A DNA stretch of 64,000 bases, from contig NZ_CP102332.1 in the NCBI RefSeq assembly GCF_024600715.1, forward strand, positions 3,968,001-4,032,000. The letters run 5' to 3'. The notes beneath the pieces were generated by a model. That model was not told the DNA's origin, searched no databases, and saw only the letters and a list, made by a program, of their open reading frames with translations. Below, piece after piece: positions 44,464 through 49,689 of the stretch (within the stretch, counting starts at the first letter, position 1; every line of letters begins with the position of its first letter). The position numbers were made by a program, and so were the translations under genes. The stretch is from Streptomyces changanensis (GTDB taxonomy: Bacteria; Actinomycetota; Actinomycetes; Streptomycetales; Streptomycetaceae).

Positions 44464-47400
44464 TCAGCGGAGCGTGGGCACCTCCCCGCCGTCCGCCCAC
44501 GTCAGCGTCACCCCGGGCAGGCCCCGCAGCCAGCGTTCCGCGACGGCCGCGAGGGCGGCGCGGTCCGGCGGTACGGCGCCCAGCCCCACGGCGTACCGGA
44601 GCCCGCCCGGCCCCGTGTCGAACGGCCGGGGCCAGGCGTGGGCGTCCGGCGCGCCCGCCTCGGTCAGCGCGGTGAGCAGGGCGCGCATACGGCCGCGTAC
44701 GCGCCCCTCCAAGGGACCCGGCGGTACGGAGACGACCGCCCAGGCGGCGTGGCGGCGGTGCAGCGCAGGTGGGGCGCACAGCCGCTCCAGGCCGCCGGGC
44801 CCGCCGTCTTCGAGCAGCTCCCACGCCCGGTACAGCTCCTGCGTGAGCAGGTCCCGGCCGCCCGGGGTCACCTGGTCCGTGCAGGGGCGCCGCGGATGCG
44901 TCGGGGTCACCACCGTCAGCGGCAGGGCCCCGGGCGCCGTCGGCCGCGCGTCCCCGGGACCTCCGGGCAAGTCCACGGGGACCCGCCAGTCCCACGCGGC
45001 CCAGGTGGCGAAGAAGCGCCGCAGCAGCTCCGCCGGCCGCAGGTCGTCGGCCTCGCCGACCGTACGGGTCGCCAGCAGGCTCCACGCCAGGCCGGGAAGG
45101 CCACCGAGGGGTGCCGCGTCCAGGCCGCGCGCCCGCGCCCACCGCTTCACCTCGCGCGCCAGCCCGACGAAGGCCGCCCGCCGGTCGCCCACCTCGGCGA
45201 GGACGGCGTCCGCGTCGCTCACCGCGCTCAGCGCCACGGCGGCGGCCGCGTCCAGTTCCGCCCGGCGCGCCACGGCGTCCCCCGGCGGTACGGCGCCCGT
45301 GGCGACCACGACGAGGTCCACGACGAGGTCGGCGGACCCGTCCGCGACCGCGTCCACGGTCCGGTCCACGGCGGGGTCCGGATCTGCGGCTCGGGCCCTG
45401 CCGCCGCCCGGGCCGGCCTCGGTCCCGTCCGGGGCGGGGGTGTCGTCGTAGCGGACGGTGAGGCGCAACCCGGGCACGCGGGCGCCGATCACCTCGCGTA
45501 CGTGCCGGACCCCGGGGAGCGCGGCGGTGACGCGGGCCCGCACCCCGGCCAGGTCCGCGTCACCGGGCAGGGCCGCCACCAGGTCCAGGTCGGCGCCCGG
45601 CAGGGCGCAGCCCATGCGGCGCGAGCCCACCACGTGTACGACGCCCTCGGGCAGCGCCTCGGCCACCAGCCGCGCGAGGCACGCGGCACGTGCGGGACGT
45701 GCGGCCCGCGCGGCACGGGCCGAGTGGGTCGCGTGTGCCGCGTGGGTCGTGTCGGGGTCCTCCTCGGCGGGTGTCAGGGCCGGGGCTGCCCACGGGTCCG
45801 GTCCGGCATCCACCGGCCGCGGGTCCGCCGACTCCCGGTCCGCCGGCCCCGCGTCCGCCGGCGGTTCGTCGTCCCGCCACCGCACCTCGCCGGAGCCGAG
45901 GGCGACCGTCGCCCGGACCCGCATCGGTTCGTCGCCGCGCCGCGACAGCAGCGCCAGGTGGCCGACGCGCGCCTCCGAACCGCCGCCCACCCGCCCCTCC
46001 GACGAGGCGGCCAGGGCGTGCGCGTCACCGGTCCTGGCCAGGGTCAGGTGCGGCGTGAACCCGGACCGGGTGCCGCGGCACCCGGGGAACCGCCGCTCCA
46101 GCGCCCGGCGCAGCTCCCCCCACGGCGCCTCGCCACCGGCCGCCGGGTCCAGCCACACGGTGGCGTCCTCGCCGTGGCCGAAGCTGTGGACGCCCTCCAA
46201 CCGGGCGTCGAAGGGCGCGACCCCCCGCACGGCCTTCGCCACCAGTTCCGCCGCCCGTTCGAACTCCGCCTCCGGGACGAAGCCGAACAGCAGGTTCACG
46301 TGCGGCGGCCACCGCAGGAACCCCGGGTCGTGCTCCCGCCGGACGTCCTGGATCCCCGGCCACAGCCCTCGGGGTGGCAGCCACGCCACCGCCGTACGGA
46401 CCGTCGGCCCCACGTCCAGCGTCCCGGCCCCGGCCCCCGCCACATCACCGTCCACCGAGCCGGAGCCGGAGCCGGAGCCGGAGCCGGAGCCGGAGCCGGA
46501 GCCGGAGCCGGAGCCGGAGCTGGAGCCGCAGCCCGGGCCCGAGCCCGTGTCCGGCGGGCCGTCGACGCCCAGGTCGACCACCACCCCGTAGTGGTCCGAG
46601 ACGAACAGCCCCTCCGGTCCCGGCGCGTCACCGGCCAGTACCGCCGCGTCCGCGCGCAGCCCCTGGCCGCGCAGCAGCACCCGGTCCAGCCGCGACGCGC
46701 GGCCCGACAGCGAGGAGACGGCGGCCAGCGGGTTCCTGCCCGGGTCGAACGTCGGCGTGCGGTCGCCCGGCCCGTGCACCTCGCTCCACGCGTCCCGCAT
46801 GCCGAGCGCGGTCTGCGGCAGGTCGCCGCCGTCGTTGAGGTCCCCGGCCAGCACCACGTCCGCGTCGATTGCCGCCAACCCCTCGGCCAGCCGGGCCAGT
46901 TCGGCCGCCCGCCGCCCGGCGCCGTCCTGCGAGTGGTCGCTGCTCAGGTGCGTCACCGCGACCACCGGCGGCCGAACCGCACCGGTCTCCAGGACCACCG
47001 CCGCCACCGCCTTGTGCGGGCCCAGGACGTGCACGGCCGTCTCCCGCACCGGTACGCGGCTGAGCAGCAGCAGCCCGCACTCGCCGACGTCCCGCCCGCC
47101 CGGGTCCGTCGACACGGCGTACCCCCGGCGCACCCACGGCGCCGCGAGCAGCATGCCGAGCAGCTCCGCCTCGACCTCCTGCAGGGCGATCACGTCCGCG
47201 TCGGCGTCGCGCAGCGCCTCCAGCAGCAGCGGGCGGCGCCGCGCCGTGTCGATGCGGTCGCTGTCGTACCGGTCCCACAAGGTGTTCCACGTCAGCACCC
47301 GCAGCCCGGCGACCGCCGGAACCACGTCGGCGCGCCCGCCCGCAGCAAGCCCGCCGCCGGCCCCACCGCCCGGCCCCCCGCCCGCAGCAAGTCCGCCGCC

Positions 47401-47757: not shown

Positions 47758-49689
47758 CTACGCCTCCTCCTCCACGGTGCCGCACGCGCCGACGTACCAG
47801 GTGCGGTGCGCCTGGCCCGGGTACGGCGGTACGAACCGGCGCAGCTGCGCCGTGAGGACCGCGGCCGGTACGGGGTGCTCCCGCACGGCGTTGCGCCGTA
47901 CCAGCTCCTCCTCGTCGACCAGCACCACCGCGTGGGTGACCAGGGCGTCCCGGCGGCGTGCCACGGCGTGGACCAGGGAGCGCTGGTGCGGGTTGAGCGA
48001 GGTGGCGTCCCAGACGACGGTCCCGCCGGCGGGGGCGGCCGCCGTGAGCGCCGCGTCGAGCCGCCCCAGGGCGGCCCGCAGCACGTCGCCGCCCGCCCGC
48101 TGGTCGGCACGGTCCCCGCGCTCCTCGCGGACGGCGTCCAGGGAGACGTACGCGCCCACCCCGGGCAGGCCCCGCGCGAAGGTGCTCTTGCCGCTGCCCG
48201 ACGGCCCGACCAGGTGCACCAGGCGCGGGAAGCCCCCGTCCCGCCAGCGCCAGGTGGCGGCGACGGCCTCCTCCGGCGTGGTGACGCGCCCCAGCGCGCG
48301 CAGCTCGCGCGCCTCGCCCCGGCACCGCGCGGCCGCGTCCGGCTCCAGCCCGGCGAACGGGTCCACCGCGGCGCACGTCCCGTCGGGTCCGCCGGGCAGC
48401 CCGCGCACCTCCTCCGCGAAGAGCACCGACCACTCCACCTGCTCCCGCGCCTCCGCCCCGGGAGCGGTGGCCGCCGCGACGGCGTGCAGGACGCGCAGGT
48501 CGGCGGCGTACGACAGGCGTACGAGGCCGGCGGCCCGCTCCTCGTCCGGGTACGGGCGGTGCAGCACGCCCTGCAACCCCACCAGGTCGGCGACCCGCCG
48601 GGCCAGGGGCAGCCCCACCGCCCGCGCCAGCCGCCCGGCGAGCGGGCCCCGCCGCTCCCGGTGCAGCAGCGCCGCCAGCACCCCGGCCAGCCGCGCGTCA
48701 CCACCGCCCCCGCCCACCACCACGTCACGGCCACCGCCACGCCCCGCGTCACCGCCGCCCGCGCCCGCGCCCCCGGCCACGTCCGGCCCCGTGCCGCCCC
48801 CGCCGCCGAGCCACACGCCGCCCCCGCCGCCGAGCCACACGCCGCCCGCGCCCAGCCCCGCGCCGGGCCTCCCGCCGCCCCCACCGCCGGGCCCCGGGCC
48901 GCCCGCCTCGGGCCCCGCGCCGAGACCGCCGCCCGCCCCCAGCCGTGCGGCGGTCTCGGCGGCGGCCGTCGCGTCCCCGTCGGCCACGCCGACCGCGGCG
49001 AGCAGCGCCCCCGCGTCGGGCGCCGCCCCGGACCGTACGTCCCACAGCGCGGCGGACGCCCCGAGGCCGTTCGGGGTGACGGCGGCGTGCACCCAGTGCG
49101 TACCGGTCCGCACGTGCGCGGCGCGCACCCACTTCGCGACCCGCCGCCCGAACTCCGCCGCCGGGAACCCCTCGACGGTCCGGACGACGTACCCCTCCTG
49201 CCGGGCGGTGTCCACCCGCAGCCGCCGCAGCGCCCGCTCGTCGAAGACCCCGCGCCACAGCACGCGCGGAACCGGCACCCCCAGCCCGCGCAGGAACACC
49301 ACCGTCCGGTCCCAGTCCAGGCACCACCCGTGCCCGTCCCATACGGAGAAGCCGTAGAAGTAGCCGTCCAGCGCGTCGTACGCGAGCGAGTGGCGGGCGA
49401 ACACGTTCTCGCCGCACACCCGCCACCCCGCCGGGACCGCGTGCCCGATCCGCGCCTGCAGCGCCTTGACCCACGCCCGCGACGGGTGGTGCGCCGAGTC
49501 GAGCGACCGCGCGTGCAGCCCGTCGGCGTACAGGGTGGTGTTCTCCCCGTCGAGCTTCTCGGTGACCACCACCTCCCGCCCGGCGAACCCCGACAGGTCG
49601 GCGGCCCGGACGTCGTCCCCGGCCACCCCCGGCGACCAGGGCAGGTGCGGCGTGCGCGGATAGTGGGTGCGCGGCTGCTGCGCGACCAT
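47758..49689 (-). CDS. RNA ligase fused to polynucleotide kinase
   Basis: A 643-residue two-enzyme protein. Residues ~20-220 form an ATP-dependent RNA ligase nucleotidyltransferase: motif I EKLDG with nucleophile Lys45, motif III-like DGYFYGFSVWD (108-118), motif IV EGYVVR (165-170) and motif V region AKWVRA (Lys186). A Gly-rich linker (250-330) has VWLGGGGG duplicated by two exact 24-bp repeats (48793-48840). A helical region (335-480) was not recognised. Residues ~488-643 are a P-loop kinase (GPSGSGKST, 495-503) with SLDAVR and VVWDATSLNPHQR typical of T4-Pnk-like 5' kinases. No phosphatase or Hen1 methyltransferase domain is seen. ATG 49689 is the first of the two-gene RNA repair operon. 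Confidence 0.9.
   Translation of the reverse strand: MVAQQPRTHYPRTPHLPWSPGVAGDDVRAADLSGFAGREVVVTEKLDGENTTLYADGLHARSLDSAHHPSRAWVKALQARIGHAVPAGWRVCGENVFARHSLAYDALDGYFYGFSVWDGHGWCLDWDRTVVFLRGLGVPVPRVLWRGVFDERALRRLRVDTARQEGYVVRTVEGFPAAEFGRRVAKWVRAAHVRTGTHWVHAAVTPNGLGASAALWDVRSGAAPDAGALLAAVGVADGDATAAAETAARLGAGGGLGAGPEAGGPGPGGGGGGRPGAGLGAGGVWLGGGGGVWLGGGGGTGPDVAGGAGAGGGDAGRGGGRDVVVGGGGGDARLAGVLAALLHRERRGPLAGRLARAVGLPLARRVADLVGLQGVLHRPYPDEERAAGLVRLSYAADLRVLHAVAAATAPGAEAREQVEWSVLFAEEVRGLPGGPDGTCAAVDPFAGLEPDAAARCRGEARELRALGRVTTPEEAVAATWRWRDGGFPRLVHLVGPSGSGKSTFARGLPGVGAYVSLDAVREERGDRADQRAGGDVLRAALGRLDAALTAAAPAGGTVVWDATSLNPHQRSLVHAVARRRDALVTHAVVLVDEEELVRRNAVREHPVPAAVLTAQLRRFVPPYPGQAHRTWYVGACGTVEEEA
48793..48840. 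repeat. Two exact 24-bp tandem copies inside the ligase linker
   Basis: GCCGCCCCCGCCGCCGAGCC followed by ACAC at 48793 and 48817. In frame on the minus strand (VWLGGGGG twice), in the Gly-rich linker. Confidence 0.9.

Follow-up and report, generated by a model that had tools for sequence, protein, structure and literature searches.

In a 2016 article in NAR (Nucleic Acids Research), Burroughs and Aravind are said to have predicted bacterial RNA-repair systems by comparative genomics. Linked genes for RNA repair – encoding a ligase, a kinase, a phosphoesterase, and other nucleotidyltransferases – are in print for bacteria and phages (PMC2904730, PMC7824862), and this kind of gene group is thus already known. 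We therefore call the pair of genes described here, P1 and P2, a new variant of it. They lie on the minus strand at 44464-49689 of a 64,000-nucleotide stretch of Streptomyces changanensis DNA (contig NZ_CP102332.1; this whole stretch is referred to as the window), between tuf (39721-40914) and rpsJ (50484-50792), and probably constitute a dedicated two-protein system for RNA end healing and sealing, as predicted from domain content, residue conservation, and gene linkage. A literature search of titles and abstract openings, which did not cover the 2016 article, found no description of this two-protein architecture.

The Deinococcus radiodurans DRB0100-DRB0099-DRB0098 set is the precedent for the P1 ligase-kinase, and consists of three genes (ligase, PARG, and HD-Pnk) in which the HD domain can still be recognised (Pfam HD, 4e-13). 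DRB0100 is reported to form a lysine-AMP adduct (PMC1997131), DRB0098 to be an active 5′ kinase (PMC1997131 and PMC11833690), and the PARG encoded between them to strip ADP-ribose from RNA and DNA ends (PMC11833690). As in this set, the ligase of P1 precedes the kinase on the same strand, and P1 is 60% identical to DRB0100 (ligase residues 7-209) and 36% identical to DRB0098 (residues 366-631, the middle and kinase regions). However, P1 is a single fusion with a degenerate HD domain, there is no PARG, and P2 is added. The Pnkp1-Rnl-Hen1 complex also uses a kinase and a ligase, to repair ribotoxin-cleaved RNA, and the opening of its abstract names no MJ1316, EEP, or poly(A) polymerase (PAP) domain (PMC4411300); unlike that complex, P1 and P2 have no Hen1-type methyltransferase among their Pfam matches. 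MJ1316 is described as a binder of 2′,3′-cyclic RNA ends in a paper citing Burroughs and Aravind 2016 (PMC6514570). The EEP enzyme ANGEL2 is reported to strip 3′ phosphates and so enable the mitochondrial poly(A) polymerase MTPAP (PMC9525292), an order that is a precedent for an EEP domain preparing ends for a poly(A) polymerase. The features of the pair are as follows.

47758..49689, minus strand: P1, RNA ligase – degenerate HD – polynucleotide kinase fusion, 643 amino acids, ATG...TAG (open reading frame and Pfam)
49126..49578, minus strand: P1 RNA ligase (nucleotidyltransferase) domain, residues 38-188, KxDG lysine K45 (Pfam)
48256..48702, minus strand: P1 degenerate HD domain (pseudo-HD), about residues 330-478 (blastp to the D. 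taeanensis HD domain)
47824..48222, minus strand: P1 5′-polynucleotide kinase domain, residues 490-622 (Pfam)
47763..47773, minus strand: GGAGGAGGAGG, likely ribosome-binding site for P2, within the 3′ end of P1 (sequence)
44464..47757, minus strand: P2, MJ1316 – EEP – 2H – poly(A) polymerase, 1097 amino acids, GTG...TGA (open reading frame and Pfam)
47563..47757, minus strand: P2 MJ1316 domain, residues 1-65 (PF04457, 2e-18)
46591..47295, minus strand: P2 EEP domain, TDP2-like, residues 155-389 (Pfam)
45928..46377, minus strand: P2 2H phosphoesterase domain, residues 461-610, lacking in some relatives (PF13563, 2e-31)
44467..45711, minus strand: P2 poly(A) polymerase module, predicted to be of the canonical (eukaryotic) type, residues 683-1097 (profile and fold matches)
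49728..49764, minus strand: promoter-like element upstream of P1, TTAATCGGTCG – spacer – CCTACAGTG, a weaker copy (conserved motif)

An earlier note on this DNA, made from its letters, described a ligase-kinase fusion followed at zero spacing by a 1097-residue protein, and this description holds. Both reading frames are open, the P1 stop abuts the P2 start (TAG|GTG) with GGAGGAGGAGG immediately ahead of it, and codon-position GC is coding-like for both genes (0.966 and 0.942 at third positions of P1 and P2, respectively). The earlier note's assignment of MJ1316, EEP, 2H, and poly(A)-polymerase-type domains to P2 is likewise borne out by Pfam, with all four above curated cut-offs: MJ1316 at 1-65 (2e-18; 67.2 bits against a cut-off of 26.3), EEP at 155-389 (3e-21), 2H at 461-610 (2e-31), and PAP_central at 867-981 (9e-8). 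P1 matches RNA_ligase at 38-188 (4e-33) and AAA_33 at 490-622 (6e-22), also above curated cut-offs; no NCBIfam model matched either protein at or above its own cut-off. MJ1316 was recovered by Pfam, and every other assignment by both Pfam and one or more solved-structure searches; the fold searches support four modules, in lists dominated by kinase, PAP, and EEP matches. Domains for ligation, 5′ phosphorylation, 3′-end healing, and nucleotidyl transfer are thus encoded together, abutting and on one strand, as in the general plan of predicted RNA-repair operons (a ligase, a nucleotidyltransferase, and end-modifying enzymes).

Relatives of P2 were sought in one genome per species across 84,980 bacterial and archaeal species, giving 244 relatives among 255 candidates, and the best-scoring 80 of the 244 were analysed; 2H-less and remote forms are under-represented among these. 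All 80 loci carry actinomycete names in their titles, and all 80 proteins have the four domains in the same order. The alignments contain 59 P1 and 56 P2 rows, both including the window, and omit 10 of the 68 P1-bearing loci (truncated, fused, or flagged in start-finding) and 25 of the 80 P2 loci. Hidden Markov models of the modules were built from these alignments, which contain many of the 80 loci; Pfam serves as the independent check and matched all four P2 families in 46/46 P2 proteins and both P1 families in 62/62 P1 proteins scanned.

The P1 ligase has a nucleotidyltransferase domain with the KxDG lysine and motifs III, IV, and V all present, the fold of T4 RNA ligase 2 (Rnl2) by solved-structure search, and the PF09414 RNA_ligase signature. 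The C-terminal kinase has the P-loop, catalytic Asp, and lid Arg of a 5′-OH polynucleotide kinase, and the active-site residues of both domains are invariant in all 59 rows. Between them lies a third module absent from the earlier description, a degenerate HD domain related by blastp to the D. taeanensis HD domain (6e-11 for the best relative). Homology is clear against D. taeanensis, where scores have a median of 28.9 bits (best of 1180 shuffles, 25.8); against D. radiodurans the eight best listed scores (24.6-28.5) exceed the best shuffle (24.3) and the median (18.1) falls below it, and no relative scored above shuffles against two viral HD-Pnks. Pfam HD was not among the matches listed (25 of 34 families) for the 62 P1 proteins, and hhalign of the middle region gave no match with a template set that included kinases without an HD domain. 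The HD dyad is missing from the homologous position in 59/59 P1 proteins, and we therefore do not class P1 as an HD-Pnk and reject an intact HD-Pnk fused to a ligase; a lone HDxG string, at residue 241 of L021, is in a linker. Most likely, P1 is related to a ligase and HD-Pnk set like DRB0100/DRB0098, with its HD 3′-phosphatase decayed. Residues 255-327 of P1 form a long, low-confidence, glycine-rich linker, and P1 is split between frames or shortened in L051 and L111 (G502).

In P2, the MJ1316 residues P48, W49, H50, R51, W63, D64, and R65 are kept in all 56 aligned proteins, as are both 2H motif histidines, and the second 2H motif has T/S in 55/56. The EEP fold carries N, E, D/N, and D/H metal-binding and catalytic residues, and its active site is invariant across the rows; we take the catalytic roles of the conserved ligase, kinase, and EEP residues to be those of their families. 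The PAP module has palm, central, and RRM-like C-terminal domains in canonical order, with the GS motif and catalytic aspartates largely fixed (G711, S712, and D723 in 56/56, D725 in 54/56, and D814 in 55/56). Its predicted model (683-1097) aligns over its full length to residues 40-523 of yeast PAP, and the alignment to PAP gamma, yeast PAP, and Pla1 likewise spans the whole module and its catalytic aspartates; a bacterial PcnB/CCA-type polymerase was rejected because the profile and fold matches are eukaryotic PAPs. By sequence and predicted structure, the module is of the canonical eukaryotic type, although it differs from eukaryotic PAPs in being bacterial and fused to MJ1316, EEP, and 2H. 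PAP_central exceeds the Pfam cut-off in 3/396 Actinomycetota genomes, the same three that carry MJ1316, and the occurrence of a eukaryotic-type PAP in this sample only with this system raises the question of a shared repair origin with the eukaryotic enzyme. Two further small, incomplete Actinomycetota genomes (L137, L138) have weak sub-cut-off PAP_central matches in frames of about 268 amino acids. Residues 112-145, 401-443, 634-678, and 776-807 of P2 are long, low-confidence linkers, with a (GS)n run in 401-443; several window linkers in P1 and P2 exceed their length in aligned relatives, and P2 of L076 is split between frames or shortened.

Co-occurrence of the two genes in other genomes, a check that the earlier note named, is seen: a whole or partial P1 immediately precedes P2 in 68/80 loci, of which 62 have all three modules, five are partial (four ending at a contig end), and one, Nonomuraea montanisoli (L069, 6222-11000), has a single open frame of 1592 amino acids spanning both proteins – a natural fusion or a sequencing artefact. 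The junction lies between -14 and +7 nucleotides in 62 of 66 measured loci (including three plasmid-collection loci and L090), most commonly as a one-base overlap (33/66). In a chosen set of 60 genomes from the same genus, P1 is present in 11/11 with a long P2, 0/9 with only a short MJ1316-2H protein, and 1/40 with neither; the contrast of 11/11 with 1/49 gives a Fisher p of 3.5e-11 for a genome set that was chosen, not random. This search used an E cut-off of 1e-15 with up to 20 candidates scored per genome, and of the 40 MJ1316-negative genomes 20 were listed as negative and 20 were taken as such from their absence among 81 positives. The only one of these 40 with P1 (G456) is an assembly of 1770 contigs at 82% completeness, and its match is at a contig end. 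Since MJ1316 occurs in only 3/396 Actinomycetota genomes and 81/295 genomes of the genus, the P1-P2 system is patchy; in the source genome its single match is P2. Streptomyces sp. DH12 (L011) has an identical tuf product and a P1 with 91% identity, and the fetched flanks of the 80 loci include rpsJ in 14 and tuf in seven, as in the window.

The upstream regions of L010-L088 share a pattern, TTCGRTGG – about 20 nucleotides – TACAGT, with the TTCGRTGG box mostly 28-29 nucleotides ahead of TACAGT and commonly about 40 from the P1 start. Scores of at least 12/15 were obtained in 33/59 upstream regions and 2/2950 shuffles, and of at least 11 in 39/59 and 40/2950, with no candidate in 5/59; these statistics are inflated by related sequences and by choosing the motif from the same data. 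In 24 genomes, the exact pattern has 16 matches, of which 14 precede P1, against two for the reversed pattern, and 10 of the 24 genomes have no exact match; the genomes were picked from loci with a well-scoring element, and these same upstream regions had served to derive the motif. A broad regulon was rejected because 14 of the 16 exact matches are at the P1 operon, and the element thus appears promoter-like and nearly private to the P1-P2 operon among these genomes.

The domains, the four module folds, the conserved catalytic residues, the loss of the HD dyad, the linkage and co-occurrence, and the promoter-like element all argue for a healing and sealing system. Single-domain relatives of the P1 ligase (DRB0100-type) are frequent among predicted viral contigs (147 of the 193 candidates), and this is counted for it as well. 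In the order that we propose, MJ1316 of P2 would dock where a metal-independent ribonuclease has left a 2′,3′-cyclic-phosphate (or phosphate) end, the TDP2-like EEP, aided by 2H where present, would turn the blocked end into a 3′-OH, and the eukaryotic-type PAP module could add nucleotides to it. The P1 kinase domain would phosphorylate the partner 5′-OH, and the Rnl2-fold ligase would join the ends via ligase-AMP and AppRNA intermediates. Because the P1 HD is degenerate, the ligase-kinase is predicted to depend on P2 for 3′-end healing, with P2 supplying the step lost with the HD 3′-phosphatase. We infer each of these activities, their order, and a common substrate for P1 and P2. The earlier note favoured repair of cleaved RNAs such as toxin-cut tRNAs: RNA repair is the best reading of the domains and co-occurrence, and tRNA or another translation RNA as the substrate, and toxins or phages as the source of damage, are presumptions. 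If the reading is right, two proteins would cover the whole path between a blocked RNA break and its sealing, actinomycete RNA repair can be tested with purified proteins and clean deletions, and the apparent inactivity of DRB0100 may reflect assay without a suitable healing partner.

Several observations weigh against this reading. The nearest listed fold for the P2 EEP in the solved-structure search is TDP2, a 5′-phosphodiesterase, and not ANGEL2, to which it is less close within the EEP superfamily and whose 2′,3′-cyclic phosphatase activity is reportedly the subject of a 2020 paper cited in PMC9525292. The first 2H motif is H-x-N rather than H-x-T/S in 49/56 proteins, including that of the window (T/S in 7/56), and the earlier note's statement that all domains have recognisable catalytic residues needs correcting on this point. 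No 2H match was found in the P2 frames of six P1-adjacent loci (L219-L224). Twelve of the 80 loci have P2 without an adjoining P1 (two Streptomyces, six Catellatospora, three Actinoplanes, and one Actinospica), and only the Actinospica genome has a P1 fusion elsewhere; the three Actinoplanes genomes have single-domain ligases (interrupted by an internal stop in one), a Catellatospora genome has a weak ligase-like match (2e-11), and the rest show only weak P-loop matches or none. No neighbouring gene family recurs in more than 16/80 loci, and the families that reach this figure are ribosomal-protein genes, in a search that did not include RNA genes. Untemplated nucleotide addition ahead of sealing would alter the RNA. 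Finally, DRB0100 reportedly failed to seal either DNA or RNA in vitro, and its operon partners did not bring about DNA ligation (PMC1997131).

The variation in 2H is seen in 30 genus loci, the best-scoring of 83 MJ1316 places and each about 3 kb. P1 adjoins P2 in 19, all with EEP, and eight of these run from EEP straight to PAP without 2H; the six above are from these eight, fetched at greater length. The remaining 11, with no adjoining P1, are short MJ1316-2H proteins. Because P1-linked forms without 2H exist, MJ1316-EEP-PAP is the core that accompanies P1, with 2H a movable part, and the idea of 2H as an indispensable healer is weakened by the six loci. The 'full set' of end-processing domains in the earlier note therefore needs qualifying: the Pfam families are present, and yet P1 has only a degenerate form of the HD healing module, and some relatives lack 2H. 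A more specific version of healing and sealing is possible and is offered tentatively, namely that P2 took over 3′ healing once the P1 HD died, so that EEP clears the end, PAP rebuilds lost nucleotides, and P1 seals, with the MJ1316-EEP-PAP core functioning as the prokaryotic equivalent of the nuclear poly(A) polymerase of eukaryotes under a near-private, damage-responsive promoter.

Alternatively, P2 could clear cyclic-phosphate ends and A-tail the fragments for marking or rescue, with P1 acting separately as a salvage ligase and linked to P2 only by co-transcription. A complete eukaryotic-type PAP module, the 12 loci with P2 and no adjoining P1, and the same chemistry in the mitochondrial ANGEL2-then-MTPAP order (PMC9525292) would fit this; we nevertheless think it unlikely, given the almost perfect co-occurrence of P1 with long P2 in the Streptomyces set and the overlapping or abutting genes, which share a single frame in L069. 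Less plausible still is the healing and sealing of DNA breaks, with the TDP2-like EEP removing 5′ adducts, as once proposed for the DRB0098-DRB0100 operon. The TDP2-like EEP would suit DNA; against it, MJ1316, 2H, and PAP are RNA-end families, and the P1 ligase has a T4 RNA ligase 2 fold and RNA_ligase signature. DRB0100 is upregulated by irradiation and its operon was initially termed DNA repair (PMC1997131, PMC11833690), but with its partners it failed to ligate DNA (PMC1997131). A conflict effector, in which the P2 PAP or EEP halts translation by modifying invader or host RNA ends and P1 undoes the damage, would suit the patchy occurrence of MJ1316 and the near-private promoter element, and yet seems very improbable: the best match to PADLOC defence models is only a 22-residue P-loop match at 4e-4, and 11 of the 12 P2-only loci are in genomes without a P1 fusion anywhere, which is awkward for a toxin.

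Carriage of P2 by viruses was considered and rejected, as there were no relatives among 60 candidate IMG/VR stretches and no tblastn match at 1e-5 in 50,697 phage records. The predicted viral contigs with DRB0100-type ligases reach 561 kb, and in 11 of 80 (L139-L218) the fetched flanks contain a kinase match; in L153, an HD-Pnk with its HD motif retained adjoins the ligase. A cyanobacterial (Calothrix) plasmid encodes a full four-domain P2-type protein, and P1 was not matched anywhere in the 13.8 kb that were fetched; L231 encodes an MJ1316-EEP protein (479-amino-acid frame) with no 2H, PAP, or P1 match in 9 kb. Short Streptomyces MJ1316-2H proteins (L006, L227-L230, and others, including one on an S. 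exfoliatus plasmid) have the first and third domains of P2 in common and lack EEP, PAP, and P1; the domain pair presumably resembles vertebrate LENG9. Among the neighbours of the pair, judged by eye only, the open reading frame at 41194-43722 (minus strand) is LmbE/PIG-L-type deacetylase-like with a repeat region, and that at 43710-44327 (plus strand) is MarR-like.

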